From contig JAFIGH010000053.1 in assembly GCA_020831525.1 (NCBI GenBank), positions 1 through 34,642 of the forward strand: a DNA stretch of 34,642 nt, in the 5' to 3' direction. Origin of the DNA: Opitutales bacterium (lineage in GTDB: Bacteria; Verrucomicrobiota; Verrucomicrobiia; Opitutales; Oceanipulchritudinaceae). Shown here in pieces: positions 8,584 to 27,105 of this stretch (within the stretch, counting starts at the first letter, position 1; every line of letters begins with the position of its first letter). A program made the translations under genes and the position numbers. The notes beneath the pieces were generated by a model. The model did no database searches. It worked only from the letters and a program-made list of their open reading frames with translations, and was not told the DNA's origin.

Positions 8584-8587
8584 TCTC

Positions 8588-9412: not shown

Positions 9413-9514
9413 GCGCCGCCGGCGCTCCGGGAGGGGGCCGCAAATTTTTCTCATAACAGCCTTTACAGCGGCGGCGGATGGGTCCTTACTCGCGGGTTTT
9501 CATTTCATCGATTT

Positions 9515-9613
9515 ATGGGAAACCTTCGCAAGAAACGCCGCCGCAAGATCGCTCAACACAAACGCCGCAAACGTTCGCGGGCCAACCGCCACAAAAAGCG
9601 GACCTGGGGTTGA
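9515..9613 (+). CDS. 32-aa highly basic AURKAIP1/COX24-like (bS22-type) protein
   Basis: A short gene (ATG 9515, TGA 9611-9613) encoding [20 protein letters not shown] and a further 12 residues, [12 protein letters not shown]. About 60% of residues are Lys, Arg or His. The K-K-R-R-x-K-I-x-x-H-K-x-x-K-R...N-R-H-K-K pattern is that of the AURKAIP1/COX24 small-protein family, whose actinobacterial member is ribosomal protein bS22, bound near the decoding centre. A clean 10-bp terminator begins 51 nt after the stop, supporting a real gene. It is probably a ribosomal component; this is by pattern recognition. Confidence 0.8.
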
Positions 9614-9664
9614 GCGCCCTTGCATAGCGTCCGGCCGCCGCCGGAACGCACTCCACTTTTCCAT

Positions 9665-9695
9665 ACCGCCGGAAGCCTCTTCCGGCGGTCTTTTT
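9665..9695 (+). terminator. Rho-independent terminator after the 32-aa protein gene
   Basis: Perfect 10-bp stem ACCGCCGGAA / TTCCGGCGGT with a 5-nt loop, followed by CTTTTTG. Confidence 0.92.
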
Positions 9696-10013
9696 GTGTG
9701 CCTGCGGAGCGTTTTGCCGACGGGTTCGGAAGAGACGCGAAGGCTGTCTTTTCGGCCCTTTAAAAATCCTGTAAATTTACATTTGCCCGGAAGTCTGCGA
9801 ATCCTCGCCAGCCCGCTGTTTTCCGCGGTGTAGGACGGAATTGATAATACCGTTTTTACAGTTCGGCTGAGTTCGCGTCCGTGGCGCCGAAAGGCCTCGG
9901 TTTTTGCCTTGTAAAACGGACAACACCCCCGTTTTTTTACATTTACATTTTCACGGGAATGGTCTCCACACCGGGAGACCGCGACCGCGAAAGAAACGTG
10001 TTCAGAACAAACC
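9696..10013 (+). promoter_or_regulatory. Upstream region of the pil operon with a cluster of TTTACA/TGTAAA motifs
   Basis: This 318-nt gap has no gene. It contains a perfect 12-bp palindrome TGTAAATTTACA (9770-9781), another TTTACA at 9855-9860, TGTAAA at 9910-9915, and a tandem pair at 9936-9941 and 9942-9947. Six copies of a six-base AT-rich motif in 180 bp of GC-rich DNA suggest operator sites for a regulator of the pilus genes, or repeated -35-like elements. The regulator is unknown. Confidence 0.45.
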
Positions 10014-11072
10014 ATGTTGTCCCGCAAGGCCAAAGGTCTTTTCATCGAAGTCGGCGAGTTTTCGGTCCAAGTGGCGAAGACGACTTCGCTGACGCCGCCC
10101 TGTGCCGTGGAATCGGTGGAGAGTTTTTCGCTGAGCGGCGCGTGGGAGAGGCTCTCCCGGCTGACCGAGGAGATGTCGGGCACCGGTTCCGGGGGCAAAC
10201 TGGTGCAGGCGCACTGCGCGGTGTATCCGCCGTCGCGTTTTGTTCGCCGGCACACCGTGGAATCGGCGGCGAAGGCCAAGGATCCGGCCTACTTGGGCAA
10301 TGTCCTTTCCCAGCAGTTCAAGATCGACACGGCAACCAATGTCGCCGCGGTCCTCAACGCCGTGGACGGGAGCGAGTTCACGCTGGAGCGCTCTATTGCG
10401 CAGCAGAAGGAGTTGGTCTTCGCGGGTTCGGTCAAGGCGGAGTTCGACAAACTGCAGGAGAGTCTCACGGATGCGGATGTGTATCCGGTGTCGCTGCAGC
10501 TCGGCACTCTTTCGGTTCTCGGCGGGATATCCGACTACATCCGGTGGAAGCAGATTTCCGATCCGGTGATGGTTATCGAAATGAGCATGGGCCAGACCTG
10601 CACCTATATTGTGTCGCGCAACATGGTCGAACTGGCCCGCCCCCTCTCGAAAGGGCTGAGCACCATTGTTCCACGGATTCGCGAGGAACTCGGGCTCAAG
10701 GACGAGGCCTCTGCGGAAAAGCTTTTTCTCTCAAACACCTTTGATTTCACGGAGATGGGGCCCGCGCTCTTGCAGGGCCTGCTCAAGGAACTCCAGGCCG
10801 CGATCGGCTTCTTTGAAGTGCAGACGGGCATGACGATCGGGCATCTGCACCTTGGTTCTCTTCCGGAGAATCTCTCGTGGATTCCCTCGGTGATGTCGAA
10901 GAGCCTCGGTCTACGCCTGCTCCGCACGGAGTACGGAGAGTGGCTGCCGAGGGTCGACGTCCAGCCGCAGGAATCTGTTCTCGAACAGGTGGGCGGCCAT
11001 GCTTCGTGGTTCGGACTCTTTTCCATGATGGGAGCATTCAATTCCAAGGACAATGGCTCGAAAAAGAAATAA
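10014..11072 (+). CDS. pilM: PilM-like actin-fold pilus assembly ATPase
   Basis: A 352-aa cytoplasmic protein at the head of a five-gene pilMNOPQ-type operon. The start M-L-S-R-K-A-K-G-L-F-I-E-V-G-E-F-S-V-Q-V-A-K has the first strand pair of the actin-like fold. V-M-V-I-E-M-S-M-G-Q-T-C-T-Y-I-V-S near residues 184-200 is the phosphate-2-like motif, with S-M-G-Q in place of the usual D-I-G. R-P-L-S-K-G-L and a late G-x-L-P-E-N segment follow. PilM binds the PilN tail and couples the motor to the inner-membrane platform. The Asp in the D-I-G-like position is changed, so nucleotide hydrolysis may be weak. The last 20 nt overlap the next gene. Confidence 0.8.
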   Translation: MLSRKAKGLFIEVGEFSVQVAKTTSLTPPCAVESVESFSLSGAWERLSRLTEEMSGTGSGGKLVQAHCAVYPPSRFVRRHTVESAAKAKDPAYLGNVLSQQFKIDTATNVAAVLNAVDGSEFTLERSIAQQKELVFAGSVKAEFDKLQESLTDADVYPVSLQLGTLSVLGGISDYIRWKQISDPVMVIEMSMGQTCTYIVSRNMVELARPLSKGLSTIVPRIREELGLKDEASAEKLFLSNTFDFTEMGPALLQGLLKELQAAIGFFEVQTGMTIGHLHLGSLPENLSWIPSVMSKSLGLRLLRTEYGEWLPRVDVQPQESVLEQVGGHASWFGLFSMMGAFNSKDNGSKKK

Positions 11073-11706
11073 GCGGGTCAGTCATCCCCATTGGCGCCCG
11101 GATTTCCGCGATGTCGTATTGCTTCCCGACATCAAGGTGGTGCGTACGCAGTTTCTATCGGTGTTTCTCACTTTGACGATTGCCGTGGCACTGCTGGGAT
11201 GGCTGCTCTTCAACGAGTATGGTGTGCGGCTCGCCCAGTCCGAACTGGCGACAGTTCGGGCGGAGGTCGCGGCGTCACGGGCCGAGAACGCGGAACTTGT
11301 GCGGCTCTCCGGCGAGTTCACACGTGAAGCGCGCCATGTCGAGGAACTGCAATCCTTTCTCGATTTGCCCTATGATTACCACGAAATCCTCGTCGTACTT
11401 GCGGAGATCCGCCCCCGTGCCGTCACCTACAACCATGTCTCGGGCGGGATTTTCGCGGAGCGGCAGGGGCGCCGGGAGGTGCGGCGGTACCGCCTGCAGT
11501 TGCAGGGCACCGTACGGGAGTCGGCGGAAAACCCCGCACCCGCGACGATCAACCGTTTCCGCGACCGTCTCTCTGCAATCCCTGTGGTTGCGATGAAGCT
11601 GGAGGAGCAGCGCCTTTCGTCATTCTACCGCACGGACGATCCCACGGTCTTCAATTTTGTCATACAAATCGTCCTCGATCCGGACAAAGCAGGAGGCGGG
11701 TCATGA
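11053..11706 (+). CDS. pilN: PilN-like inner-membrane pilus assembly protein
   Basis: A 217-aa bitopic protein: a basic cytoplasmic N-terminus (1-30), one membrane helix at about 34-53 (F-L-S-V-F-L-T-L-T-I-A-V-A-L-L-G-W-L-L-F), a coiled coil at about 60-100, then a ferredoxin-like periplasmic domain. This is the PilN layout, but the N-terminal PilM-binding motif (I-N-L-L-P) is replaced by D-V-V-L-L-P-D near residue 20. The ATG overlaps pilM by 20 nt, showing tight translational coupling. The assignment rests mainly on topology and gene order. Confidence 0.72.
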   Translation: MARKRNKRVSHPHWRPDFRDVVLLPDIKVVRTQFLSVFLTLTIAVALLGWLLFNEYGVRLAQSELATVRAEVAASRAENAELVRLSGEFTREARHVEELQSFLDLPYDYHEILVVLAEIRPRAVTYNHVSGGIFAERQGRREVRRYRLQLQGTVRESAENPAPATINRFRDRLSAIPVVAMKLEEQRLSSFYRTDDPTVFNFVIQIVLDPDKAGGGS

Positions 11707-12275
11707 AGAAGGAGATGATTATCAGCATCCTGCGGCAGCACCGTGTTGCCATGGTTCTCTGCGCGTTCGCCGTCGTCTTTATCGCGCTCCTTGTCGTGCG
11801 AGTGCCGATGACGGGCGAGTTGGAGAGCGAGCTTGAGTCCGAGCGCATGACCCTGCGCCGAATGCAGCAGAACCTCGCGCAGGGCGAGGACCTCCGCGGG
11901 CACCTTGATACGATCAAGACACAGGTCGTGCAAATCGATGAACGTCTGATGGAGCGCCGCGAGGTAGCCGTAAACTACGACTACTTCTACCGCATGGAAG
12001 AGGCCGCCGGTGTGCGCATTCAGAATATCCAGCAGCAGGCGCAGGCCGCCGGTTCGGCGGTCACGCTCCCGCGGATCGAACTATACGACGTGATCGGCTA
12101 CTCCGTGACGGCGCAGGGCGGGTTTGAGGATATCGTCGATTTCATTCAACAACTGGAAAGCGGTCGCCATTTCGTCCGTATCCAGTCGGTCAATCTGAGT
12201 TCCGCCGGTCAAGCCGGGTCGGTCGGGCGGCTCAACGCGCAGATTGAACTCAACGTCCTCGGGAGGAAACCGTGA
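11703..12275 (+). CDS. pilO: PilO-like inner-membrane pilus assembly protein
   Basis: A 190-aa bitopic protein with a short cytoplasmic N-terminus, a membrane helix at about 15-35 (V-A-M-V-L-C-A-F-A-V-V-F-I-A-L-L-V-V), a coiled coil at about 40-85 (E-L-E-S-E-L-E-S-E-R-M-T-L-R-R-M), and a periplasmic domain. In that domain G-Y-S-V-T-A-Q-G-G-F-E-D-I-V-D-F-I-Q-Q-L-E resembles the PilO F-x-x-L-x-x-F-L-x-x-L-E helix. It is expected to pair with PilN and align the secretin with the inner-membrane platform. The start overlaps the pilN stop (ATGA), and the gene ends overlapping the next one. Confidence 0.74.
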   Translation: MKKEMIISILRQHRVAMVLCAFAVVFIALLVVRVPMTGELESELESERMTLRRMQQNLAQGEDLRGHLDTIKTQVVQIDERLMERREVAVNYDYFYRMEEAAGVRIQNIQQQAQAAGSAVTLPRIELYDVIGYSVTAQGGFEDIVDFIQQLESGRHFVRIQSVNLSSAGQAGSVGRLNAQIELNVLGRKP

Positions 12276-12826
12276 AAACCATCGTCGTATCCGCATTGCT
12301 GCTGGTTCTGCTGTCAGGAATCTCTGTCGCGCAAGGTATTGTGCGTCCGAAGGAGCAGCGTGAGGGCATCATAGGGCAGGGCAGCACCCTTCTCGTTCAA
12401 GAGCATACGCCCGTGCGGACCGCTTTGGCGGACCTGCAGAGCCCGTTCCAGCGTTGGGTGGATCCGACGCCGGCGGTGACGGATCCGGAGCCGACCGTCA
12501 CGCAGCGGCAACCGCGCAGCGAGCGCCTGCCCGACGCTGAGGCGCTCGAACTCATTGCCGAGCGTTTCCGCCCGACTGGAAGTATGATCGGCGCGGGGAC
12601 GGCTTTCCTCAATCTCCAGGGCGGCAACCGCCTCGAACTCGGGCAGGTCTTCTCCGCTACCGTCCGCGGCGAGTCCTACGATGTCATCGTCGAGCGAATC
12701 ACCAACCGCGCCTACACGCTGCGCGCGGGTGAGGCGACGCTTACCCGCGAATACCTGCAGGACCGCCTCGGCACCGGGACAATGACCCGACCGGGAGAAC
12801 GCGGGTCCGATGAGCCCCGCCGCTGA
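12272..12826 (+). CDS. Exported protein in the pilP position of the pilus operon
   Basis: A 184-aa protein starting at GTG 12272, which overlaps the pilO stop. It has a signal peptide (M-K-T-I-V-V-S-A-L-L-L-V-L-L-S-G-I-S-V-A-Q-G) with no lipobox Cys, so unlike classical PilP it is probably not a lipoprotein. The middle is Pro/Thr-rich and disordered. The C-terminal part (N-R-L-E-L-G-Q-V-F-S-A-T-V-R-G-E-S-Y-D-V-I-V) could be a small beta domain like PilP or GspC homology regions that contact the secretin. Function is inferred from position; no specific PilP motif is certain. Confidence 0.6.
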   Translation: MKTIVVSALLLVLLSGISVAQGIVRPKEQREGIIGQGSTLLVQEHTPVRTALADLQSPFQRWVDPTPAVTDPEPTVTQRQPRSERLPDAEALELIAERFRPTGSMIGAGTAFLNLQGGNRLELGQVFSATVRGESYDVIVERITNRAYTLRAGEATLTREYLQDRLGTGTMTRPGERGSDEPRR

Positions 12827-12858
12827 AGATTTTCTATTCTGTAACGAACCTTTGAATA

Positions 12859-12864
12859 TATAAT
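12859..12864 (+). promoter_or_regulatory. Possible -10 element ahead of the secretin gene
   Basis: A perfect TATAAT in an AT-rich gap of 60 nt between two genes of the operon, 23 nt before the secretin ATG. No matching -35 is seen, so it is only a hint of an internal promoter. Confidence 0.25.
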
Positions 12865-12886
12865 ATCAAACCACACAGGCAATGCT

Positions 12887-14779
12887 ATGAACTACCGGAC
12901 GTTTGTCACCCTCGCCGTCATCGGCATCACCCCTCTCCTCAACGGACAGGCGGATACGTCCTCTTCGACCGGGGAGGATGCGGGAACCACCCGCGATCTT
13001 GGATTGGAGCGCGCCCGCCAGACGATTGACGGCGCCGACCGCGAGGCGGAGCGCCGCCGAGAGGCAACGCTCGATCTCGCCGACTCGGCGGCACGCCGGG
13101 CAGGCAACCCCGGCACGGACGGCGACACCGACGCCGAGTTCATGGATGCGCCCGGCGAGCGTCCGGGTGCGGAAACACCGGCCGGACAGGAGACCGACGA
13201 CATCTTCATGGAATTGCCGGGCGAGTCGCAGGGTGATGACACCGTGGGCCGCGACGAGCGCATATCCGTGGACTTTCCCGATGAAGACGTGCGTAACATC
13301 ATCCGCAACGTGGCGGATCTTTACGGCCTGAATGTTGTTATCCCCGAGACGCTCGTGGGGCGCATCACCATCCGTCTGCGCGACGTCACATGGCAGCAGA
13401 TTTTCAATGTTGTCCTCGAGCCCATGAACTTCACGTGGATCGTCGACGACAACATCATCAAAATCCGCAGCCAGGACGAGCTGATGCGCGAACCGATGGA
13501 CACTCGGGTGTTTATCATCAACTTTGCCCAAGCCGGCGAGCTTCGTAATTCAGTCGGCAACCTCGTCGACACCGGCGCAGGCGGCCGCATCCAGGTGGAC
13601 ACCCGCAGCAACGCGCTCGTCATCACCGAGCGTCCGTCCCGCCTCAACAGCATCCAGCAGATCATTGAGACGCTCGACCGTCCGACCGAGCAGGTGATGA
13701 TCGAGTCCCGCTTTGTCGAAGTGACGCAGCGCGACGTGAAGAATCTTGGCGTGGACTGGCAGTCGCTCTCCGGCTACTCGATGCAGGCCGGTCCGTTCCA
13801 GCGCGAGTATGGTTTGGACCGCGAAAGCGGCCCGACGCGGTCGGACACGCGCACAGAGGGCTTCACTTTGAATCCCGACGGCTCTGTTGACATCATCAAC
13901 TCGCGCATACGGGAGTTCGACAACGATTTCAGCCGCATTCTGACGCACGAGGACACCGCGCTCTTCAGTGCTGACGCCTTCCAGGTCGTGCTTTCCGCCC
14001 TTGAGCAGAATACGGATTCGCGCCTCGTCTCCAATCCGACGATTGTCACGGTGAACAACACCAAGGCGCAGATCAACATCGGTGAGGAGTATCCGATCCC
14101 GCGCTACACGTACAATCAGGAGCGGGGCACCTTCGAGGTGAGTGGCTTCGATTTCAAGCCGATCGGGATTCTCCTCAACGTCCTGCCGCAGATCAACAGC
14201 GCCGGGTTCATCAGTCTAGACATCCGTCCGGAAATCAGCAGCCGTACAGGGCAGGTCGGTTTCGGGGGCGAGGGCGGCGCGCAGATCCCCATCATCACCA
14301 CCCGCCGCACGGAAAGCACGGTGACGCTCAAGAGCGGCTTCACGCTCGCTATCGGCGGTCTCATTGAGACCGTCACGAACAACGGCGAATCCCGCGTGCC
14401 CGTCCTCGGCAACATTCCCGGTGTCGGTCGCCTCTTCCGCAGCGAAAGCACGAGCGAAGACCAGCGCAACCTTATCGTCTTCATCACCGCCCGCATCCTG
14501 AGCGGAGACGGCGCGACCTACGAAGACGTCTTCTCTGACCGCCGTCTCTACGAGATGGGAATCCGCAAGCGTGATATTCCGGGCGAGGACGTCTCGCCGG
14601 AGGAAGATGCGTTGTTCTCCCGACTGCGCCGCGAGTCCGACGAAGTCACCGGCATTGAGGTGGAAGCCCGCCTGCGCCAGCAACTCCGCGCCCTCGAACA
14701 GGCCCGTGAAGAACAGCGCGCCCGCGCCGAGCAACTGCCCGTCGAAGAAGAACGCGTCATCCGCCGTCGTTACCAGTGA
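12887..14779 (+). CDS. pilQ: Secretin (PilQ/GspD family) outer-membrane channel
   Basis: A 630-aa outer-membrane secretin. A signal peptide (1-21) precedes a long Asp/Glu/Gly-rich linker (22-122), then an N0/STN-like domain (I-S-V-D-F-P-D-E-D-V-R-N-I-I-R-N-V-A, 125-195). A ring-forming N domain follows (A-N-A-L-V-I-T-E type, with R-L-N-S-I-Q-Q-I-I-E-T-L-D-R-P), then the beta-barrel. The barrel has V-E-V at about 283, L-E-Q-N-T-D-S-R-L-V-S-N-P-T, and the signature V-P-V-L-G-N-I-P-G-V-G-R-L-F at about 505. The last 70 residues are Glu/Arg-rich and probably coiled, an extension not typical of PilQ. No peptidoglycan-binding AMIN domain is visible. It forms the pore through which a type IV pilus or secreted substrate leaves the cell. 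Confidence 0.92.
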   Translation: MNYRTFVTLAVIGITPLLNGQADTSSSTGEDAGTTRDLGLERARQTIDGADREAERRREATLDLADSAARRAGNPGTDGDTDAEFMDAPGERPGAETPAGQETDDIFMELPGESQGDDTVGRDERISVDFPDEDVRNIIRNVADLYGLNVVIPETLVGRITIRLRDVTWQQIFNVVLEPMNFTWIVDDNIIKIRSQDELMREPMDTRVFIINFAQAGELRNSVGNLVDTGAGGRIQVDTRSNALVITERPSRLNSIQQIIETLDRPTEQVMIESRFVEVTQRDVKNLGVDWQSLSGYSMQAGPFQREYGLDRESGPTRSDTRTEGFTLNPDGSVDIINSRIREFDNDFSRILTHEDTALFSADAFQVVLSALEQNTDSRLVSNPTIVTVNNTKAQINIGEEYPIPRYTYNQERGTFEVSGFDFKPIGILLNVLPQINSAGFISLDIRPEISSRTGQVGFGGEGGAQIPIITTRRTESTVTLKSGFTLAIGGLIETVTNNGESRVPVLGNIPGVGRLFRSESTSEDQRNLIVFITARILSGDGATYEDVFSDRRLYEMGIRKRDIPGEDVSPEEDALFSRLRRESDEVTGIEVEARLRQQLRALEQAREEQRARAEQLPVEEERVIRRRYQ

Positions 14780-14834
14780 CCCCGCGAGAAAAAGCATCGG
14801 GCAGTCTACACCGTCCCGAGAGAATAGAGTTCTT

Positions 14835-14856
14835 ATTCTGATATTAGAATTTTTTA
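14835..14856 (+). terminator. Weak AT-rich hairpin with T-run between secretin and giant gene
   Basis: ATTCT / AGAAT around GATATT, followed by TTTTTT. The stem is short and AT-only at its base, so it could at most attenuate read-through from pilQ. It may equally be part of a promoter region for the giant gene. Confidence 0.3.
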
Positions 14857-14875
14857 CAACCAACCCTTGTTCACA

Positions 14876-17800
14876 ATGAAACGTACGCTTAAATTCGCTA
14901 AACGCTTTGCAGTAAAGTGTTCCCTCGCAGCGCTTGCTCTGACCCTTTTCCCGCCCGCCCTCGCGTACTCCCAATTAACGGAATACCCTTTCGGTGCGAG
15001 AGGAGCCGCTTTTCTTGACACGTGGTCTTGGGCGCATCCTGTTTCCGACGGAGAGCCGGCTTACAACGACCTCATCGAAGCAAACGGTAATGTGATAGCC
15101 GTTGGCGACGGTGGTCGAATTACCGTTTCAGTTGACGGAAACGAGTGGGCCTCTCCCGTTTTCCCTACGGCTGAAGACCTCTATGGCGTTACATTTGGTT
15201 CCAGTGAGGGTGCGTTTTACGCGGTAGGCGACGCGGGCACGGTTCTGCGAAGCACCGACATGGAGACTTGGGATGTTGTTCCCCCGAACGGGGACTTGAC
15301 CGTTGATATCGACCTGCGGGGGATCGCTTACCTTGGCGGTGGAGCCTACGCCGCGGTGGGTTTGAACGGTGTGATTCTGCACTCCACGGACGGAACAACA
15401 TGGATGGACGTCTCCGTGAGCGGCTTCACAGTTGATCTTGCTGCTGTTGCATCCGTCAGTCCGGGAGATCCGTATGTGGCAGTGGGAAGTGCGGGGACAA
15501 TTCTTTCTTCTGAAAACGGCACTGATTGGGATATTGTTCAGACCGGATTGGAGTTCGATCTCAATGCTGTTTACGCCCCACAAGGCGGGATGTATGGTTG
15601 GCAGTATTTTGCTGTCGGTGATTCGGGGATTATACTGTCTTCGGTTGATGGAACATCGTGGTCGACGCGCTTCTCGGAAACCACCTATGCTTTGACGGGA
15701 ATTCAATCGGGGAACGGCCTGCTCGTTGCCGTTGGTGACTCAGGACGATTGGTTATGTCCCGCGACGGTGAATTGTGGTTTGAGACGCTGACGCGATTTC
15801 CAGTCAATTTAAAGGCCGTCGTTTTTAATCAAGACGAATTTTATGCAGCCGGGGAGAATCACACCATTTTCCAAGGTCTTTCAGTTGATGGAAGTTGGTG
15901 GCCGGACTCGATTACTTGGACAGTTAGAGAAACCACAAGCAGCATTACACTTCACTCTGCTGCCAATGGTAACGGGTTGCGGGTCGCTGTCGGTGATGAC
16001 GGGTTGATTTTGACCTCATCCGATGGGGCCGCATGGAGCCCTGTGGAGGGCCTGCCGACTAGCGACGAGGATCTCTTTGGTGTCACCTTTGCGGACGGTC
16101 TGTTTATTGCTGTGGGTCAAGAGGGGACGATACTCCGGTCAATTGACGGCGAGAACTGGTCGTTTGCCGCCAGCGTTCCGACTGTGAACACTCTCAATGA
16201 CGTGCATTGGTCTGATGGGCAATTTGTAGCAGTCGGGGACAATTTCACTATCTTGACATCGGCTGATGGAGACAACTGGAGTCTTCGTACAACGGGAACC
16301 GGACAAAATCTTGTCAGTGTGGCACACGGGAATGATGTTTGGGTTGCGGTGGGCGACCAAGGGCTTGTGTTGACTTCTGAACACGGGACTTCGTGGCGCT
16401 CGCGTTTCAGCAACACGCAGAGCGATTTGAAGGGTGTTTCATTCGGTAGCGGAAAGTTTGTCGCAGTTGGAAGCGGCGGTACGGTTCTTACGTCGACATT
16501 CGCCAGTTCGTGGACCTATCGCGTATCCGGCACAACTTCGGATCTTCATAGTTCGGTTTTCGTTGACGGCGTGTTTTTGGCGGTTGGCAAGGATTTCACG
16601 TTTGCCACCTCGCTCAATGGCATAGACTGGTCCGCGCAGGAAAGCGGAATCGGGAATAGCTTGAACCACATCGATTATATGGACGGGCTGTTCGTGGCCG
16701 TTGGTGAGTTTGAGTCAATCCTCACAGCGAGCAGTGTGCTTCCTCCCGGGTTGGATCGCTGGCTTATCAGGAGCCCTCTCCCGAGTGGCCCTGCATTGGA
16801 AGAGGTGATCTATGCCGACGGAAAGTATGTCGCGGTTGGTGACGAGGGGGTGCTTCTTGTTTCGACAGACGGTCGTAACTGGAACATCAAGGACACAGGT
16901 GTCCAAGACAGCATTACCGGCGTGGCCTACGGGAACGGACGATTTGTTGCTGTTGGTGGACAGAACCTTCTCGTTTCTCCGGATGCCATCACATGGACCG
17001 TCCAGGAAACATGGATTGTTCCAATATACAAGGTGGCTTTCGGGAATGACCGGTTTGTTGCGGTCGGTGCTTCGTCTCACATTATCACGTCCCAAGATGG
17101 AATCATCTGGGCCGGAGGGCAGGTCAACGCGGATGGGCAGCAATTGCATGATGTTCGATACGAAGCCGACAGAAACCGCTTTATTGTTGTTGGTGCGCCG
17201 GCGGAAATGACAACTGTGTTCAATACGAGGGAACTGGTTCCTCAGGACCCGTTAATTGATCCGGATATTGTGTTTTCTTATCCGGAAACGAGTGTCACCC
17301 AAATTTACACATCGGCAAACGGTATCAATTGGGAGAGAGTTCAGCCGCCTCTCACTGTCACCCCGACGAGGCTCATACCGACTCAAGACGGCGTGGCTCC
17401 CGATCCTTTGCCGGAGTGGCTGTCGAGGACATTGAAGACGGTTAGTTACGGAAATGATTATTTCCTCGCCGCAGGCGAAGGCGTTGAGTTGATCGGAATC
17501 GATGTGCCTGCCTTTGACGATCCGTTTGGTCAGGCGCGTGAGGCGGGGCAAGGCCGTTCCTGGAGAATTCAGGCCCTTGGCGGAGTGACTGTGAATGGCT
17601 CAGTTTTTGGTGACGGCAGAGGCAATCCCCGGTTTGTTCTTGTGGGAGAAAACGGAGCTGTCTTTGCCCGCGATCCGGCTGGCATCAGTTTTCCTGGGAT
17701 CATCGAAAACCTCAACAGCGTTACCTACGGAGCGGGTCAATACGTTGCGGTGGGCGATAACTCGCGTATCCTCACGTCACCTGACGGCCAGTTTTGGCAA

Positions 17801-20800
17801 CTGCGCTCGCAGTCCGTGCTCGACTCCTTTAATGCGATCACCTCGATACCCGGACAGTATGTAGTCGTAGGAGACATGGGCCGTGTGTTTGTTTCCGGGA
17901 ATGCGGTGGATTGGGAGGAGGCCACAACTCCGACACAGTTGGGACTTCGGGCAATAGCGAGAAGCGGCTCGCGTTATATTGCTGTCGGCGATGCCGGGAT
18001 GATCCTCACCTCTCCAGACGGTAGCACGTGGCAGCAGAGGGTTTCGGGGACCTTGAGCACTTTGAATTCGATTGCGCGAAGTCCCACCGGAGTCGTTGTG
18101 GCTGTAGGTGCAAACGGTGAGGTCATTCGTTCGAACGACTCTTCGATCGGAAGCTGGACAATCGTTGAAAGCGGCATTTTGGCTGAACTGCATGAGGTTA
18201 TCTTCAGTGACCTTCTTGACATTTTTATTGCTGTCGGTGAGAGCGGGACCGTTCTTACTTCGGACGATTTAGGTGCTACATGGAACCTCAGTACAGATTT
18301 CGGAGGGATGCCTCTTTACGCTGTGTCCGAGTCCGAAGAGGTGCTTGTTGCAGTTGGAGAAGGCGGTCGGATTTTCACATCCGAAGACGGAATCCTCTGG
18401 GAGGCACGGTTCTCCGGAACCTCCAATGCGCTCAATGCTGTTTCGTATGGAGACGGAATTTTTCTCGCCACGGGTGCCGAGGGAATCGCGCTCTCGTCTA
18501 CTGACGATGGCCGGACTTGGTTCAGGCGTCATGCAAACACGGGGTATGCGCTCAACGGCATTGACTTCCGCAACGGTTTCTTTACCGCTGTAGGATCGTT
18601 TTCAACTATTATAACTTCCGGAGACACAGAGTCGAAGTTTGATCAGACCATCCAGTTCGCTCCGATTAGTGAAAAGACCATTGCGGACGGGTCGTTCGCG
18701 CTGAGCGCTCAATCGACGAGCGGCTTGCCGGTCTCGTTTGAGATTGTATCCGGACCTGCGACCGTTGATGAGAATATTGTCACTCTCACAGGTGAAGCAG
18801 GCAACGTTGTCATCCGTGCGATCCAGCCGGGTAACGCGAATTTTCGCCCTGCTCCGCCGGTAGAGCAGTCGTTCCGCGTTACGGTTGCGACCCAGGAAAT
18901 TACCTTTGCTCCGCTGGAGAACATTGTCTTCGGCAGTGGACCCGTAACTTTGGAGGCTACCTCCGACAGCGGATTGCCGGTGCGCTTTGAAGTTGAATCA
19001 GGCCCTGCCGCGCTGTCGGGAAACACTTTGTCCATCAACGGTACTGGAACGGTGACCGTGGTTGCCCGGCAGGACGGTGACGAGGAGTTCAGCGAAGCCG
19101 TTCCGGTGGCGCGCTCCTTCGAGGTTTTGCCCGCTCCGCAAACGATCACCTTCCAACAGCCGGGCGAATACACGCTTGGTGATCCGCCTGTGCCGCTAAT
19201 TGCTTCCGCAAGCTCCGGTCTTCCCGTTGAGTTCCGTGTTGCTTCGGGTCCAGGTGTGATCGACGGAACCAATCTTGTTATCGACGGTACGGGTGTGATC
19301 TTGGTCGAAGCCCGCCAACCGGGTAGCGACTTGTATGAGCCCGCCGTAACGGTGGTGCGTGAGGTTGTGGTTGGTCCCGCTTCAACAGGAAACTTTTGGA
19401 CAGCGATTCCGGCGCCGGTGCAAAGCGACCTTTTTGATGTTATCTTTGCGGGAACCGGCGCCGAACCGCGGTTTGTCGCCGTTGGTTCTCAGCAGACTGT
19501 CGTTTCCTCCGGAACGGGAACAGGTTGGTCGTTGCGTTCCTTCGGCAGCGCCAACCTCACAAGTATTGTGTTCGGGAACAATAGTTTCCTTGCCTCTGGG
19601 TTGGAGGGAACGCGCTTGCGTTCTTCCGATGGGCTGGACTGGAACCCGCTTTCTGCACCGCTGGTCGCCTCGGTCAATTCTATGGCTTACGGCAGAGGGC
19701 TTTATGTGGTTGCCGGGCAGAACGGTTTCATTGCAACCTCTCCGGATGGCTCGGATTGGACGACCCGTGACAGTGGGACGCCGAACAGCCTGTTTTCTGT
19801 GATTTACTCCGAAGGCGAGTTTCTCGCTGCCGGTGACGGTATCATTCTCCGCTCGGAGGACGGACGGAATTGGACGCCGGTCTTCACCGCGCAAGGCGAC
19901 GGCTTTCGTGGCTTGGCGAGAAACGGAGACCGTATTGTTGTCGTCGGCGAGAGTTCGATTGTGTGGAGTTCCGTGGACAACGGAGGGACATGGTCGCTCG
20001 GGCTCGGCGTCATGGGTAATCTCAACGCCGTCGCCCATGGTGCGGGCCGATTCGTTGCCGTCGGTGAAGATGGAGTCATCTTCACCTCCGCTGACGGGCG
20101 GGAGTGGACTCCGCGCGCGTCCAACACGGAAGTTACTCTTCGTAGCATTGCTTACACGCATAATGTCTTTGTGGTCGTCGGCGACGGAGGGACTATCCTG
20201 ACGACCGCCGAAAGCAGCACGGAAGTTTCCGCGAAGACGGCGCAGTCGATCAGCTTCGCGGCGCTGCCGGACGTGTCGTATGACACGGGGAGTGTGTCGC
20301 TCTCGGCAAGCGCGGAGAGCGGACTGCCTGTGCGCTTCGGCGTGTCTTCGGGCCCGGCGGTGCTGGAGAGCGACGGTGCGACGCTGACGCTTACGGGCGT
20401 CGGCGAGCTGGTCGTGCGCGCAAGCCAGCCCGGCGACTCGACGTATGCGCCCGCGGCGGAGGTGGAGCGGCGCTTCACGGTGAGTCCGGGAGCGAACGCC
20501 ATCGACTTCCCGGCGCTTGCGGACGCGGCCTTCGGGGACGCGCCGGTTGCGCTGGCGGCGAGTGCTTCGAGCAGTCTGCCTGTGAGCTTCGAACTGGTCT
20601 CGGGTCCGGCTGAGCTGGACGGCGACGTCCTGACGCTGACCGGAGCGGGTGAAGTGACGGTGCGCGCTCTGCAGGGCGGGGACGCGTTCCACGCTGCGGC
20701 CGCGCCTGTGGAGCGCAGCTTCACGGTGGCGCGGGCGGCGCAGACGATCAGTTTTGACGTGCCCGCGGCGGTGACGCTCGGCTCGGCTCCGCTGGAGCTG

Positions 20801-23800
20801 GAAGCGAGTGCTTCGAGCGGTCTGCCGGTGAGCCTCGCGCTGGTCTCGGGACCGGGCGAGCTGGACGGCGGCGTGCTGACCATCACGGGCTCGGGCAGCG
20901 TTGTCGTGGAAGCGTCGCAGTCCGGCGACGCGGACTGGGCCGCGGCCGCGGCGGTGACGCGCACGATCACGGTGACCAGCGTTGACGTGGGCGAGTTCTG
21001 GCGCGTGCTGGGCGTGCCTTCGTCGGCGGATCTTGAGGACGTGATCCACGCCAACGGGCGCTTTGTCGCGGTGGGCGCGGGCCAGACCGTGCTCGAATCG
21101 GCGGACGGGGAGACGTGGACGGGCCGCTCGAGCGGTTCGGTCGACCTCGGCGCGGTGGCCTTCGGAAACAACCGTTTCCTCGCTGCGGGCGATGCCGGCA
21201 CCCGGCTTGTTTCGTCGAGCGGGACGAGCTGGAGCCCGCTGTCGGGTCCGTTGAACGAGGCGGTTCGCTCGCTTGCCTACGGGCAGGGACTGTATGCCGC
21301 GGTCGGAGTGAACGGCGGGCTGCTGACCTCGCCTGACGGCGTCGGATGGACGGCGCGCGAGACGGGCACGGCGGACGATCTGCGCGCGGTGACCTATTTT
21401 GACGGCGTGTTTTACGCCGTGGGCGGCGGCTCCGTGCTGCGTTCGCGGGACGGCCGCGGGTGGACCCTGGCGCTGTTCTCGGCGCAGGACGACCTGCGCG
21501 GCGTGACGGTGCGTCCGGATGACGGGCGGATCGTCGTGGTGGGCGCGGACTCGACGGTGTGGCACAGCGACGACGGCGAGACGTGGACGCTGGGCGACGT
21601 GATCGAAGCGGACCTCAACACGGTCTCGTCGGGGGCGGGCGTGTTCCTCGCGGCGGGCGAGAACGGCGCGCTGTACCGCTCGGCGGACGGGCAGAGCTGG
21701 AACGCGGTGGCGAGCGGGACAAGCGCTTCGCTTCGCGGCTCGGCGTTCGTGGAGAACATGTTCGTTATCGTCGGCGAAAACGGCGTGGTTCTCACCAGCG
21801 CGGAGGCGGGGCAGAGCCCCGAGTCGAAGACGGCGCAGTCGATCAGCTTCGCGGCGCTGCCGGACGTGTCGTATGACACGGGGAGTGTGTCGCTCTCGGC
21901 AAGCGCGGAGAGCGGACTGCCTGTGCGCTTCGGCGTGTCTTCGGGCCCGGCGGTGCTGGAGAGCGACGGTGCGACGCTGACGCTCACGGGCGTCGGCGAG
22001 GTGGTCGTGCGCGCAAGCCAGCCCGGCGACTCGACGTATGCGCCCGCGGCGGAAGTGGAGCGGCGCTTCACGGTTCTCGGGCGTTCCCAGACGATTACGT
22101 TTGGTCCGATCCAGGACAAGGTCTTCGGCGGTTCGGACTTTTTCCTAACCGCGACGGCGACAAGCGGCTTGCCGGTGAGCTTCGAACTGATCTCCGGACC
22201 TGTCGAGTTGGACGGAGACCGTGTCTCGATCACGGCCGCGGGCGTTGTGATTATCCGTGCGGTGCAGGAAGGAAATGACATCTACTCACCTGCGGCACCG
22301 GTGGAGCAGTCGTTCACGGTCGCTCGTGCTTCACAGACGATCACGTTCGACACTGTTGCCACGATGGAGGAAAATGATCCTCCTGCGCAGCTCGAGGCTT
22401 CTTCCACGAGCGGTTTGCCGGTTGAGTTTGCGGTGTTGTCCGGCCCGGGCCGTGTTGTTGAGGGAAGCCGCCTCGAGGCTGAAGGGGTTGGAACGATTGT
22501 CGTTGAGGCTTCGCAGCCGGGGGACGACAATTACAGCGCCGCTGTGAGCGTATCCCGCGAGGTCGTGGTTCTTCCCGCTGGACCGGCCAGTGAATGGCTG
22601 CCTGCTGTCAGCGGAACTGCCGCGGATCTCTTCGGCGTTGGTTTCGCCGGACATCGTTTCTACGCGGTAGGTACGGACCTGCGTATCCTCGAGGGTTCCC
22701 GCAGCGGAGAAACTTGGACTGCCCGGACGTCGGGTTCGAGCACCTTGCGCGGTATCGCGTCCGGTGCGGGCCGGTATGTCGCAGTGGGTGACTCGGGCGT
22801 GGCGTTACGTTCGGATGATGGTGTATCATGGCAGCTCGCCGGCAGCGGCGCGAATGTGCCACTGAACGATGTCGTTTACGCGAACGGCCGCTTTGTTGCG
22901 GTCGGTGCCGGTGGCACTGTATATACTTCTCCTGACGGAGTTGTATGGTCTTCCGGTGTGTCCGGTGTCTCGCAGAACCTGCTGGGAGTCGCCTACGGGG
23001 GAGGAAGGTTTGTCGCTGTAGGCGGCAATGTCATTCTCACTTCGTTCGACGGTGCCTCATGGACAGTGTTTGAGAGCGGGCTACCGGTAACATTGCGTTC
23101 CGTCGCTTACGGAAACAACCGGTTTGTCGTCATCGGAGAAGACTTCACAACATGGACTTCGACGGACGGTTCGTCATGGTTCGTTGGACACAGAGGAGGT
23201 CCGGAGATGTTTGGTGTCGCCTACGGTGTCGACCGTTTCATAGCCGTTGGCGCTGAAGGCAGTGTGTTTACTTCTGTAGACGGGGCTTCGTGGATTGCTC
23301 GTTCGGCGGGGGTTGACGTGACTCTGCGTGACGTCGCGTTCGCTGACGAACAGTTCGTCATTGTCGGTGATGGTGGAACAATTCTTGTCTCCGGCACCCT
23401 GCTTGTTAAGTCGCCGCAGGTGATCGATTTTCCGGCGATTCCTGATCGCGCATATACCGACGGGCCTTTGATTCTCGAAGCCACCGCCAGCAGCGGACTT
23501 CCCGTGTCTTTCGCCGTTGTCTCCGGTCCGGCCGTAATCCAGTCAGACCGTCGGACGTTGGCATTTTCCGGTGCGGGCGAAGTCACGGTTCGGGCTATTC
23601 AGGGTGGAAACATTAATTACGAACCGGCGACGCAAGTAACGCGTACGTTCCAGGTACGGGGCCAAGCCGATGACGGCGATTTTGTCGCACAAACCTTCCG
23701 GGATCTATTGTATCGGGAAGCTACGACGGCGGAAGTTTCCACGTGGAAGACATACTTGCGGCACCGGTCGAGAGCAGAATTTGTCGAGTCCCTTCTGAAA

Positions 23801-24643
23801 GACAGTGAATACACCCACATCCGGTGGGCCTTAATGGCCCGGTCCTTGATGACCGGGAACTGGGGAGGTCCAGTTTCGTTGATCGATAATACCGAAATTC
23901 TTGATGAGTTCTCGCTGCGATTCCTCATGGAGACGCTGCTGCCCGACTTCGAAGAAGCGTTTCTTGGCGGCTTCACGGTTCCGCAATCGACAAGCGCCCG
24001 TCGCGAAGTGGACGAATTCCTTCGTGCCGTGTGGTTCGGGAAGTATGGTGTGTCGCACGAGCCTACGGCAAAGCAACTTGACGCATGGCGTGAGCGCTTT
24101 CTCCAAGTGCCCGTGGATGTGTTTCTTGCCATGGTCTTGCAGGATGTGACCGGGTTTGACGGCGGTTCCGTCGTCTTGGGAGTGCCGAACGTGCCAGACG
24201 ATTTACTGCGGAATCAATCCTATGCGGCCGGGCTCCTTGTAGGCCTGCTTCGCATACAGCCGCATGACCAAGAGGTAGTTCGCTTAGCGGAACTTTCGGT
24301 GCTTGAGCAAATTGAATCGGTGCTGAGTGACTCCCGATACCTTGACCGTTTCTTCGGTCCGTTGCAGGGCGAAATTGAGTACGAGGACGATCTGAGATAC
24401 TCGTCATGGCTTGGGTGGTATTCCGTGGACCGAAGCGGCTGGACCTACACCAGCAAGATCGGGTGGACGTGGATGCCCTCCGGCAGCACGGCGGGAGTAT
24501 GGATGTTCCATGCGAATGACGGCTGGGTCTGGACGACGCCCGGGTTGTTCTCGAGCCGCCCGATATTCTATCATTCTCAATCCGGCTCGTGGTCTCATCT
24601 AGAGCGTGGCGAAAATGGAAGAATGGAGTTCAAGGCATTCTGA
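14876..24643 (+). CDS. Giant secreted surface protein: seven 7-bladed beta-propellers, ten Ig-like domains, DUF4214-like region, W-rich C-terminus
   Basis: About 3255 aa, starting at ATG 14876 (an in-frame TTG lies 9 nt upstream). Signal peptide at 1-35 (A-L-A-L-T-L-F-P-P-A-L-A). The body is built from a roughly 42-residue blade motif, [FY]-x-A-V-G-x-x-G-x-I-L-x-S-x-D-G-x-x-W, similar to YCF48/BNR-type propellers. I count 28 copies up to about residue 1250, then three groups of seven at about 1506-1780, 2040-2310 and 2574-2840. Between them are Ig-like domains of 75-80 residues (Q-x-I-x-F-x-x-x-x-D, S-G-L-P-V-x-F, V-x-S-G-P-A, Y-x-P-A): three, three, three and one. Residues 2935-3165 carry two DUF4214-like segments. 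The end (3170-3255) repeats G-W-x-x and W-x-W. It is likely an adhesin on the cell surface; the ligand is unknown. No Ser/Thr protease or lipobox is seen. Confidence 0.85.
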   Translation: MKRTLKFAKRFAVKCSLAALALTLFPPALAYSQLTEYPFGARGAAFLDTWSWAHPVSDGEPAYNDLIEANGNVIAVGDGGRITVSVDGNEWASPVFPTAEDLYGVTFGSSEGAFYAVGDAGTVLRSTDMETWDVVPPNGDLTVDIDLRGIAYLGGGAYAAVGLNGVILHSTDGTTWMDVSVSGFTVDLAAVASVSPGDPYVAVGSAGTILSSENGTDWDIVQTGLEFDLNAVYAPQGGMYGWQYFAVGDSGIILSSVDGTSWSTRFSETTYALTGIQSGNGLLVAVGDSGRLVMSRDGELWFETLTRFPVNLKAVVFNQDEFYAAGENHTIFQGLSVDGSWWPDSITWTVRETTSSITLHSAANGNGLRVAVGDDGLILTSSDGAAWSPVEGLPTSDEDLFGVTFADGLFIAVGQEGTILRSIDGENWSFAASVPTVNTLNDVHWSDGQFVAVGDNFTILTSADGDNWSLRTTGTGQNLVSVAHGNDVWVAVGDQGLVLTSEHGTSWRSRFSNTQSDLKGVSFGSGKFVAVGSGGTVLTSTFASSWTYRVSGTTSDLHSSVFVDGVFLAVGKDFTFATSLNGIDWSAQESGIGNSLNHIDYMDGLFVAVGEFESILTASSVLPPGLDRWLIRSPLPSGPALEEVIYADGKYVAVGDEGVLLVSTDGRNWNIKDTGVQDSITGVAYGNGRFVAVGGQNLLVSPDAITWTVQETWIVPIYKVAFGNDRFVAVGASSHIITSQDGIIWAGGQVNADGQQLHDVRYEADRNRFIVVGAPAEMTTVFNTRELVPQDPLIDPDIVFSYPETSVTQIYTSANGINWERVQPPLTVTPTRLIPTQDGVAPDPLPEWLSRTLKTVSYGNDYFLAAGEGVELIGIDVPAFDDPFGQAREAGQGRSWRIQALGGVTVNGSVFGDGRGNPRFVLVGENGAVFARDPAGISFPGIIENLNSVTYGAGQYVAVGDNSRILTSPDGQFWQLRSQSVLDSFNAITSIPGQYVVVGDMGRVFVSGNAVDWEEATTPTQLGLRAIARSGSRYIAVGDAGMILTSPDGSTWQQRVSGTLSTLNSIARSPTGVVVAVGANGEVIRSNDSSIGSWTIVESGILAELHEVIFSDLLDIFIAVGESGTVLTSDDLGATWNLSTDFGGMPLYAVSESEEVLVAVGEGGRIFTSEDGILWEARFSGTSNALNAVSYGDGIFLATGAEGIALSSTDDGRTWFRRHANTGYALNGIDFRNGFFTAVGSFSTIITSGDTESKFDQTIQFAPISEKTIADGSFALSAQSTSGLPVSFEIVSGPATVDENIVTLTGEAGNVVIRAIQPGNANFRPAPPVEQSFRVTVATQEITFAPLENIVFGSGPVTLEATSDSGLPVRFEVESGPAALSGNTLSINGTGTVTVVARQDGDEEFSEAVPVARSFEVLPAPQTITFQQPGEYTLGDPPVPLIASASSGLPVEFRVASGPGVIDGTNLVIDGTGVILVEARQPGSDLYEPAVTVVREVVVGPASTGNFWTAIPAPVQSDLFDVIFAGTGAEPRFVAVGSQQTVVSSGTGTGWSLRSFGSANLTSIVFGNNSFLASGLEGTRLRSSDGLDWNPLSAPLVASVNSMAYGRGLYVVAGQNGFIATSPDGSDWTTRDSGTPNSLFSVIYSEGEFLAAGDGIILRSEDGRNWTPVFTAQGDGFRGLARNGDRIVVVGESSIVWSSVDNGGTWSLGLGVMGNLNAVAHGAGRFVAVGEDGVIFTSADGREWTPRASNTEVTLRSIAYTHNVFVVVGDGGTILTTAESSTEVSAKTAQSISFAALPDVSYDTGSVSLSASAESGLPVRFGVSSGPAVLESDGATLTLTGVGELVVRASQPGDSTYAPAAEVERRFTVSPGANAIDFPALADAAFGDAPVALAASASSSLPVSFELVSGPAELDGDVLTLTGAGEVTVRALQGGDAFHAAAAPVERSFTVARAAQTISFDVPAAVTLGSAPLELEASASSGLPVSLALVSGPGELDGGVLTITGSGSVVVEASQSGDADWAAAAAVTRTITVTSVDVGEFWRVLGVPSSADLEDVIHANGRFVAVGAGQTVLESADGETWTGRSSGSVDLGAVAFGNNRFLAAGDAGTRLVSSSGTSWSPLSGPLNEAVRSLAYGQGLYAAVGVNGGLLTSPDGVGWTARETGTADDLRAVTYFDGVFYAVGGGSVLRSRDGRGWTLALFSAQDDLRGVTVRPDDGRIVVVGADSTVWHSDDGETWTLGDVIEADLNTVSSGAGVFLAAGENGALYRSADGQSWNAVASGTSASLRGSAFVENMFVIVGENGVVLTSAEAGQSPESKTAQSISFAALPDVSYDTGSVSLSASAESGLPVRFGVSSGPAVLESDGATLTLTGVGEVVVRASQPGDSTYAPAAEVERRFTVLGRSQTITFGPIQDKVFGGSDFFLTATATSGLPVSFELISGPVELDGDRVSITAAGVVIIRAVQEGNDIYSPAAPVEQSFTVARASQTITFDTVATMEENDPPAQLEASSTSGLPVEFAVLSGPGRVVEGSRLEAEGVGTIVVEASQPGDDNYSAAVSVSREVVVLPAGPASEWLPAVSGTAADLFGVGFAGHRFYAVGTDLRILEGSRSGETWTARTSGSSTLRGIASGAGRYVAVGDSGVALRSDDGVSWQLAGSGANVPLNDVVYANGRFVAVGAGGTVYTSPDGVVWSSGVSGVSQNLLGVAYGGGRFVAVGGNVILTSFDGASWTVFESGLPVTLRSVAYGNNRFVVIGEDFTTWTSTDGSSWFVGHRGGPEMFGVAYGVDRFIAVGAEGSVFTSVDGASWIARSAGVDVTLRDVAFADEQFVIVGDGGTILVSGTLLVKSPQVIDFPAIPDRAYTDGPLILEATASSGLPVSFAVVSGPAVIQSDRRTLAFSGAGEVTVRAIQGGNINYEPATQVTRTFQVRGQADDGDFVAQTFRDLLYREATTAEVSTWKTYLRHRSRAEFVESLLKDSEYTHIRWALMARSLMTGNWGGPVSLIDNTEILDEFSLRFLMETLLPDFEEAFLGGFTVPQSTSARREVDEFLRAVWFGKYGVSHEPTAKQLDAWRERFLQVPVDVFLAMVLQDVTGFDGGSVVLGVPNVPDDLLRNQSYAAGLLVGLLRIQPHDQEVVRLAELSVLEQIESVLSDSRYLDRFFGPLQGEIEYEDDLRYSSWLGWYSVDRSGWTYTSKIGWTWMPSGSTAGVWMFHANDGWVWTTPGLFSSRPIFYHSQSGSWSHLERGENGRMEFKAF
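20232..20481 (+). repeat. 250-bp near-identical direct repeat, copy A
   Basis: This segment encodes an Ig-like domain (A-Q-S-I-S-F-A-A-L-P-D-V-S-Y-D onwards). It matches 21825-22074 base for base except at three positions that I could find (a T/C in a Thr codon, C/G changing Leu to Val, and G/A in a Glu codon). The spacing between copies is 1593 nt, exactly 531 codons. It marks the left edge of a GC-rich block. Confidence 0.93.
21825..22074 (+). repeat. 250-bp near-identical direct repeat, copy B
   Basis: Second copy of the repeat at 20232-20481, in the same orientation and reading frame. It marks the right edge of the GC-rich block; the sequence just after it returns to lower GC and different codon choice. 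Confidence 0.93.
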
Positions 24644-24731
24644 ATTAGAGAATTCAAGTGTATGAAATTCTGATGCTATACTTCGCAGCTTTCGGGTATG
24701 TTTTGGGGTTGGAGAGTTAGCAGATCATAGC

Positions 24732-24765
24732 GCCCGTGTTGGAGGCGGGACAACCGCCTTCGGGC
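24732..24765. repeat. REP-like composite hairpin
   Basis: Inner stem AGGCGG / CCGCCT (24743-24748 and 24754-24759, loop GACAA) enclosed by outer arms GCCCG / CGGGC. Short GC-rich imperfect palindromes like this are typical of the REP elements mobilised by RAYT transposases, and RAYT-like gene ends lie at both window edges. Only one copy is seen here, so the repeat status is unproven. Confidence 0.35.
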
Positions 24766-24780
24766 CTATCATGTCAGTAT

Positions 24781-24807
24781 GGGGCCGCGGATCGTATCCG
24801 CGGCCCC
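24781..24807 (+). terminator. Strong hairpin, probable terminator of the giant gene
   Basis: Perfect 12-bp stem GGGGCCGCGGAT / ATCCGCGGCCCC with a 3-nt loop, about 138 nt after the giant gene's stop. It is followed by TCTGCT rather than a T-run, so it may end transcripts, stabilise the 3' end, or be part of a REP-type repeat. Confidence 0.6.
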
Positions 24808-25049
24808 TCTGCTATCATTGCCTGAAAGTATTGTGGTTACGAGGTGCGCCCGAAATCCTTGACATCCGCGGGGCGTTTCCTTAACGACGGAGTGTTCAGT
24901 CAAAAGTCAGGCATGCGCAGCTCAAAAGTGACGGGTGTATTCCGCCCGCGTGCATGTATTGGTCTCGGGTTCCGGTGTGTCTCCAGTGCCGCTGTGTGCG
25001 TACGCCACGCCGCCCGCCAACCTCATCCAACCGTCAACCGACAAAAGCT

Positions 25050-25436
25050 ATGAAGTTTGCAAAAGACGACATTCCCGCGCAAATCGACGTTCCGGGCGCA
25101 AAGGCCCGAATGATTCTCAACTTCGGAGACGCTACCAATTACGGAACGATGTCCGGAGAATATTTCTCGCTCAAAGAGGGCACGGATATCGCCCCGCTTC
25201 TCAAAGGGCTCAAGACCAACCTCTGCCAATCGCCGCATTGGGGATACATGATCGAAGGCGAGGTGACGGTGACGTACTCGGATGCGTCGGAGGAGACTGT
25301 CGTTGGCGGAGAGTTGTTTTTCTGGCCGCCCGGCCACTCGATCCGGGTGGGCGCCGATGCGGAGATCATTCTCTTCAGTCCGCAGGAGGAACATTGCTCC
25401 GTCGTGGAGCACCTGCGCAAGCAGCTCGCCGGTTGA
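25050..25436 (+). CDS. Single-domain cupin protein
   Basis: A 128-aa protein with one small beta-barrel cupin domain. C-Q-S-P-H-W-G-Y-M-I-E-G-E-V-T-V-T-Y carries the first cupin motif with a single His, and G-G-E-L-F-F-W-P-P-G-H-S carries the second motif region with its Pro-Gly-His. The metal-binding set looks incomplete compared with enzymatic cupins, so it may bind a small ligand rather than catalyse. The start ATG at 25050 (M-K-F-A-K-D-D-I-P-A) is chosen because the upstream extension is basic and unlike the family. There is no signal peptide. It converges on the ABC-F gene. The specific substrate is unknown. Confidence 0.8.
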   Translation: MKFAKDDIPAQIDVPGAKARMILNFGDATNYGTMSGEYFSLKEGTDIAPLLKGLKTNLCQSPHWGYMIEGEVTVTYSDASEETVVGGELFFWPPGHSIRVGADAEIILFSPQEEHCSVVEHLRKQLAG

Positions 25437-25485
25437 TAGAGCGTCGCGCGGGGTGCGCGTCCCGCCGGTCGCGACCGTTCTGCTC

Positions 25486-27105
<1,620 letters not shown>

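Follow-up and report, generated by a model that had tools for sequence, protein, structure and literature searches.

A giant protein of 49 propeller blades encoded behind a pilMNOPQ-type operon in an Opitutales bacterium, and its possible role as a pilus-linked adhesin

Proteins of the YCF48/PSII_BNR and DUF6242 families are single propellers, and the animal receptor LRP2 (megalin) has eight propellers. In other bacteria, PilY1 is a propeller adhesin with variable N-terminal domains at the tip of the type IV pilus, and the PilY1/PilC proteins are linked to these pili and defined by one seven-bladed propeller, with other domains varying (PMC13190605). The biofilm adhesins Bap1 and RbmC of Vibrio cholerae are secreted modular proteins whose Velcro-closed propeller binds matrix polysaccharide (PMC10102183). 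Our literature searches on Verrucomicrobia type IV pili, on giant secreted, YCF48-type or repetitive propellers and on the tail domain treated below gave no title describing such a locus among the matches listed, and nothing was found on RCC1 proteins with Verrucomicrobia type IV pili; most subscription journals lay outside the scope of these searches.

The window, that is, the whole stretch of 34,642 nucleotides analysed here (contig JAFIGH010000053.1 of assembly GCA_020831525.1, from an Opitutales bacterium), contains a giant gene that forms one unbroken frame of 3255 aa on the forward strand, from an ATG at 14876 to a stop at 24643; the program that lists open reading frames places the start of this frame at a TTG, at 14867. 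The parts of the gene and the operon upstream of it are collected in Table 1.

Table 1. Positions of the operon genes, the parts of the giant gene and the 3' element within the window
Feature	Position	Strand	Basis
PilM-position gene, 352 aa, first of pilMNOPQ-type operon	10014-11072	+	gene order kept in relatives
PilN-position gene, 217 aa	11053-11706	+	position and conservation
PilO-like gene, 190 aa	11703-12275	+	profile of 15 orthologs vs PDB
PilP-position gene, 184 aa, N-terminus looks signal-like	12272-12826	+	position and conservation
Secretin, closer to PilQ than the genome's other secretin is	12887-14779	+	Pfam Secretin 159.6 bits
Giant multi-propeller protein, 3255 aa	14876-24643	+	
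Signal-peptide-like N-terminus of giant	14876-14965	+	by eye
Propeller 1 (blades 1-7)	15005-15925	+	blade profile; model 1-287 on 7-bladed template, Z 28.9
Propeller 2 (blades 8-14)	15926-16771	+	blade profile; low-pLDDT breaks at either side
Propeller 3 (blades 15-21, or 15-20), insertions in blades 18 and 19	16772-17821	+	blade profile
Propeller 4 (blades 22-28, or 21-28)	17822-18637	+	model 931-1200 on 7-bladed 7bie, Z 30.5
Ig-like triplet 1	18638-19381	+	motif count
Propeller 5 (blades 29-35)	19382-20215	+	blade profile
Ig-like triplet 2	20216-20989	+	motif count
Propeller 6 (blades 36-42)	20990-21820	+	blade profile
Ig-like triplet 3	21821-22579	+	motif count
Propeller 7 (blades 43-49)	22580-23407	+	blade profile; AF2; structure comparison
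Single Ig-like domain	23408-23665	+	motif count
Helical region, DUF4214-like by eye only	23666-24370	+	helices in AF2 model, low confidence for the most part
Trp-rich C-terminal domain, candidate anchor or sorting domain	24371-24640	+	
Structured element, ~124 bp, terminator or RNA candidate, common to two congeners	24689-24811	+	

A self-built, iterated blade profile gave 51 rows on the giant. Of these, the row at aa 2033 (i-E 0.048) is noise, and an insertion divides one blade between two rows (aa 756-774 and 810-822), which leaves 49 blades in blocks of 28, 7, 7 and 7. The weakest blades are no. 18 (halves 0.0015 and 0.0011), no. 19 (9e-6) and no. 20 (4e-6), and the other 46 all lie below 1e-8. 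Since the profile was made from the protein that it scores and is circular, the independent checks were shuffles, reversal, curated Pfam models and structure prediction. No match at i-E<1e-3 occurred in 100 shuffles or in the reversed protein, which rules out a chance count of the motif, and Pfam identified DUF6242 (129.6 bits, cut-off 29) and PSII_BNR/YCF48 (PF14870, 57.1 bits, cut-off 27) but no RCC1 family and no PF05567 at E<=1. The count of 49 blades as 28+7+7+7, made in an earlier note from the letters, is thus confirmed, and its picture of a single chain of tandem YCF48-type propellers with Ig-like triplets is supported by the one frame, the signal-like start, Pfam and a motif count of 10 Ig-like domains arranged as 3+3+3+1. 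The sequence of propeller 7 gave no match in the PDB at E<=1. Phage records with a match numbered 18, none of them over 80% of the query, and the five listed are baseplate proteins of Synechococcus phages with 28-34% identity.

By eye, every block opens with an outer Trp strand, and the blades closing the blocks (28, 35, 42 and 49) have none, the pattern expected for Velcro closure. Within the 28-block, blades 7 and 14 are each followed by a longer linker. Blade 21 has no linker behind it, the Trp is missing from blade 20, and insertions interrupt blades 18-19; given the first two of these features, arrangements of 7+7 and of 6+8 both fit blades 15-28. AlphaFold2 modelling of the 28-block (aa 51-1250, four homologous rows) gave a pLDDT of 76.3 and a pTM of 0.44. 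The last unit of this model aligned with the 7-bladed structures 7bie (model 931-1200, Z 30.5, 2.5 Å, 266 aligned) and 7big (885-1200, Z 31.3, 2.6 Å, 274 aligned), and its first unit with 7oyc chain g2, which we take to be RACK1 (1-287, Z 28.9, 2.5 Å, 274 aligned). The model of propeller 7 likewise aligned with 7big (Z 30.7, 269 aligned). Confidence is low to either side of blade 21 (model 883-891 and 929-931), and the alignments of many 7-bladed templates begin near residue 885 and bridge a gap roughly one blade long, which makes the closing strand of propeller 4 uncertain. The C-terminal part was modelled with a pLDDT of 66, with values largely below 50 in its helical and Trp-rich regions.

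A seven-bladed fit is therefore given by structure comparison for propellers 1, 4 and 7 and by sequence alone for propellers 2, 5 and 6. Sevens are well supported for blades 1-14 and 29-49, as the block pattern, the linkers and the template fits make five propellers sound; the last propeller of the 28-block is backed by the model, and propeller 3 may be six- or seven-bladed. The proposal of seven 7-bladed propellers thus holds for most of the chain and is ambiguous between 7+7 and 6+8 for blades 15-28. A continuous beta-solenoid, against which the earlier note had named structure prediction as the check, is rejected, as both the AlphaFold2 model and the structure alignments give propellers. 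With 49 blades of the same family, the chain lends itself to the study of propeller growth and division.

The starts of Ig triplets 2 and 3 share a direct repeat of 250 bp with 99% identity (20232-20481 and 21825-22074), which falls largely within a stretch of ~70% GC and marks a recent duplication of a propeller plus Ig module. An ortholog of the giant is present in genome G006 (contig JAFIGE010000010.1) as a frame of 4675 aa in which the blade profile gave 71 rows at i-E<0.01. These can be read as two 28-blocks plus three 7-blocks. The frame ends with a matching helical and Trp-rich region; both the operon slot and the architecture are kept. The whole 28-blade block appears to have been duplicated in this ortholog (L071/L072). 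Genome G003 contains a 3.7-kb fragment of another copy of the giant (57% identity), and G037 and G018 contain related blade blocks located outside the slot. Altogether, the 28-block query at E<=1e-20 matched 8 of 55 genomes.

The helical region near the C-terminus had been called DUF4214-like, a resemblance visible by eye for which Pfam gave no such match at E<=1. The Trp-rich end, also pointed out from the letters, is real and recurs in the genome: a profile built from eight such tails matched 56 places in the bacterium's own genome at E<=0.01, six of which are seeds of the profile. In 28 of the 30 loci read (L226-L255), the Trp-rich window of 80 residues finishes at most 35 residues from the stop codon; in the two exceptions, the window picked a different Trp-rich stretch (L227) or 109 residues are left (L247). 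The pattern by eye is W-F-G ... PWIYH..GWLY ... W.YD..LGW.WT ... YP..Y ... W. A single locus in genome G010 has three more ORFs with this domain. The carriers seem unrelated by eye, one being phosphoesterase-like, and no Pfam or NCBIfam stretch listed for the giant covers its Trp-rich end. The domain looks like a candidate C-terminal anchor or sorting domain, and its presence at 56 places would indicate an anchoring or sorting route that is unnamed in the libraries used.

The profile of 15 orthologs of the PilO-position protein found PilO as the best row in the PDB (3jc8, E=1.1e-4), followed by further PilO structures (5uvr, 0.035; 2rjz, 0.052) with designed helical proteins interspersed among these rows, which is moderate support for a PilO homolog in the operon. 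Taken singly, the protein matched GspM/XpsM best in NCBIfam (34.9 bits, cut-off 60) and reached 19.6 bits with T2SSM_b (cut-off 21.7). At the PilM position, a single ortholog out of 16 matches PilM_2, with E=0.1; the PilM- and PilN-position profiles each found one chance-like row in the PDB, and the family-profile searches gave no convincing match for the PilN and PilP positions. The names PilM, PilN and PilP are accordingly positional. The secretin of the window scores almost equally with PilQ (245.7 bits, cut-off 284.35) and GspD (245.5 bits, cut-off 351.35), both under cut-off, whereas the genome's other secretin clearly prefers GspD (319 bits against 159.5 for PilQ). With the Amuc_1098 family of type IV pilus outer membrane proteins, the Akkermansia-type pilus secretins (NF042912, cut-off 750), the two secretins reach 121.7 and 60.3 bits, respectively, far short of membership. 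The Pfam scan of 20 ORFs of the window showed neither a pilin nor GspC, GspG or GspE. Elsewhere in the genome, one gene for a PilT-family ATPase clusters with genes resembling PilB/GspE and PilC/GspF, and PilT scores above cut-off in 45 of 55 genomes, this one included. The window further contains a family 2 glycoside hydrolase (31206-34325; LacZ-like, 1039 aa), downstream of a set of 2-oxoacid/pyruvate dehydrogenase-type genes.

Comparison with two congeners, G002 and G001, reveals an exchange within one genus. Their DNA is 85% and 81% identical to the window, respectively, from ~8190 to 14785 and 14782, so that homology stops a few bases beyond the stop codon of the secretin (14779). In both, the slot holds an RCC1 and CARDB giant in place of the YCF48-type giant, and after it comes a 382-aa protein that starts in a signal-like manner. 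When the G002 RCC1 giant was compared with G000, there was no close copy and only remote RCC1 proteins (44% over 168 residues for the best by E). Homology returns solely at 24689-24811 of the window (86% in G002 and 84% in G001), beyond which the sequences differ again. Each of the three genomes shows one match to this segment, and the RNA fold of 24680-24820 (-66.8 kcal/mol, z -5.1) was equalled by none of 200 shuffles. Rfam gave no match at E<=0.1 over 14700-25600, and the segment is a candidate terminator or small RNA.

The gene for the 382-aa protein lies directly after the RCC1 giant (L070:10667-11815 and L069:2191-3339) and its product has a Trp/Tyr-rich end; in the window, a Trp-rich domain belongs to the giant itself. 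The 382-aa protein was not counted as a member of the Trp-tail family, as the tail profile reached only E 0.054 and 0.066.

The slot, defined as the next gene after the secretin on the same strand, was surveyed in 67 secretin loci of relatives (52 at order level and 15, L192-L206, at class level), with giants defined as proteins of at least 900 aa and comparison genes as those of at least 150 aa. Removal of four order-level loci without a PilM hit (G003, G019, G037, G045) and two with less than 3 kb of room (G021, G028) left 46, which do not include the studied window. A slot giant occurs in 18 of these 46 loci, each of which has the PilM-position gene and 3 kb or more downstream, and in 14 of 31 genera, compared with 15 giants among the 602 other predicted genes of the same loci (odds ratio 25, Fisher p 3e-14, a statistic that ignores kinship). 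Of the 18, ten belong to the RCC1 type, that of G006 is the single YCF48-type giant, and the remaining seven fit neither type; RCC1 repeats were found by Pfam in the slot proteins of G002, G011, G309 and G284, and four scanned members of the last group (G029, G264, G050, G143) have Big_7 Ig repeats and no propeller family in Pfam. Some calls are to be read with care: the slot giant of G204 (1843 aa) overlaps the secretin by 121 bp and may be a shadow ORF, that of G004, of RCC1 type, is broken into successive frames of 428 and 1040 aa, and that of G001 has an overlong start as called. Giants directly next to the secretin are absent from 28 of the 46 loci and from all 15 class-level loci, three of which have less than 3 kb of room. 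A giant in the slot is thus frequent, not universal.

Outside the 46 loci, the slot giant of G003 (3035 aa) matches CARDB and Big_7 in Pfam and ends in the Trp-rich domain; its match to the PD40 propeller (35.4 bits) has no stretch passing alone. In family f14, 7 of 21 loci (L087, L171, L173, L176, L179, L183, L184) have a slot giant of 1148 to 4231 aa without an RCC1 match, and those scanned (L087, L171, L176, L179) are Big_7 Ig proteins.

A search for PilY1 (PF05567) gave no match in any of 55 genomes, this one included; among its controls, none of a first 14 matched, and 2 of 4 other genomes did. The giant would fill the role left vacant without PilY1. Its gene sits as if it were the last of the pilMNOPQ-type operon, starting 96 bp past the secretin on the same strand, and would be transcribed with it; seven propeller discs on Ig-like spacers would make its giant secreted product a long arm for multivalent binding. 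As an adhesin or scaffold, it would be deployed with the operon's type IV pilus-type machine, in the role of PilY1 with an unrelated kind of propeller, and the Trp-rich C-terminus would anchor or sort it. A slot that swaps kinds of giant (YCF48-, RCC1- and Ig-type) would change the binding specificity while the machine stays. That the giant is an adhesin or scaffold, as was suggested from the letters, stays our best guess.

We regard a pilus-linked adhesin, PilY1-like in role and not by descent, as the leading reading, with a probability that falls somewhat short of even and that we rank just above that of an anchored adhesin without a pilus link. It draws on the spacing in the operon, with no promoter-like or terminator-like match in the 96-bp gap, on the enrichment of giants in the slot, the conservation of the slot in G006 and the RCC1 swap in G002 and G001, and on the lack of PilY1 matches in the 55 genomes together with the frequency of PilT, the PilQ-leaning secretin and the PilO row in the PDB. 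Counted against it are the 28 order-level and 15 class-level loci lacking a slot giant, the seven slot giants that are neither RCC1- nor YCF48-type, the lack of a pilin among the 20 ORFs scanned, a secretin under both the PilQ and the Akkermansia-type cut-offs, a PilO-position protein that alone fits GspM best, and positional names for PilM, PilN and PilP.

Roughly one chance in three, in our estimate, goes to a giant adhesin or scaffold anchored at the surface without any physical link to a pilus, which would leave the cell by a general export route such as the GspD-like secretin, be held by its Trp-rich domain and owe its operon position to co-regulation of surface attachment only. The second secretin of the genome fits this explanation, as do the loci without a slot giant, and the spread of the Trp-rich tail over many other proteins, seemingly unrelated, argues for a general anchor over a pilus tip. 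Against it, giants are enriched in the slot (odds ratio 25), and the slot of the congeners holds another propeller giant.

It is improbable that the operon is instead a dedicated secretion system with the slot protein as its main exported substrate, released or surface-bound. Substrate genes beside secretion genes are a common layout, the PilQ and GspD models score the window's secretin equally, and GspM/XpsM is the best NCBIfam match of the PilO-position protein; however, PilO leads the profile search of the PDB, the genome's other secretin fits GspD better, and the 20 ORFs scanned in the window include no GspC, GspG or GspE. It is very improbable that the giant is a secreted glycoside hydrolase or a sialidase-like enzyme with the active site on propellers of the BNR, GH74 or F510_1955 kind. 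In favour of this, the NCBIfam model glycosyl_F510_1955 (NF045728) matches with 149.7 bits and GH74 structures occur among the fold matches; against it, that score lies below the cut-off of 175.

To return to the pilus-linked adhesin, its extension to the order is more doubtful still: Opitutales would lack PilY1, and in many the pilMNOPQ-type operon would instead end in a slot whose adhesin can be exchanged, where unrelated propeller giants (RCC1-type or YCF48-type) are swapped between the stop codon of the secretin and the short structured 3' element, giving each species its own pilus-linked binding arm. If the pilus link is true, a group of environmental bacteria uses giant modular propeller arms in place of a PilY1 tip adhesin, and the operon slot would be a ready guide to their surface specificity. 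Because the exchange took place within one genus, the link can be tested by simple gene removal.

Among known systems, PilY1 differs from the giant in having one propeller and not seven, and the giant has no PF05567 match; nor did the scan of 20 window ORFs show a pilin gene. Bap1 and RbmC differ in having one eight-bladed propeller plus beta-prism domains. The YCF48/PSII_BNR and DUF6242 propellers share the blade family of the giant above Pfam cut-offs, but the giant strings seven of them, together with Ig spacers and a tail rich in Trp, into one chain of 3255 aa. LRP2, which tops the rows of the fold searches, and 2ymu-type tandem propellers, with 2ymu also ranking high, resemble the giant in having several propellers per chain and differ in their blade families; LRP2 is an animal receptor, and 2ymu aligns over two propellers only, with an rmsd of 16.6 Å. 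With multi-propeller chains known in kind from LRP2, an ortholog in G006 and a fragment in G003, the earlier note's view of the architecture as undescribed was too strong. The RCC1 slot proteins of G001, G002 and relatives share with the giant the slot, the signal-like start, the giant size and the propeller repeats; several of them have CARDB. They are unlike it in blade family and C-terminus and in the extra 382-aa gene in G001 and G002. The giant is thus a variant on known themes, tandem propellers and giant surface adhesins; what gives it interest is that it lies behind a pilus-type operon and that the gene in this slot is exchanged.
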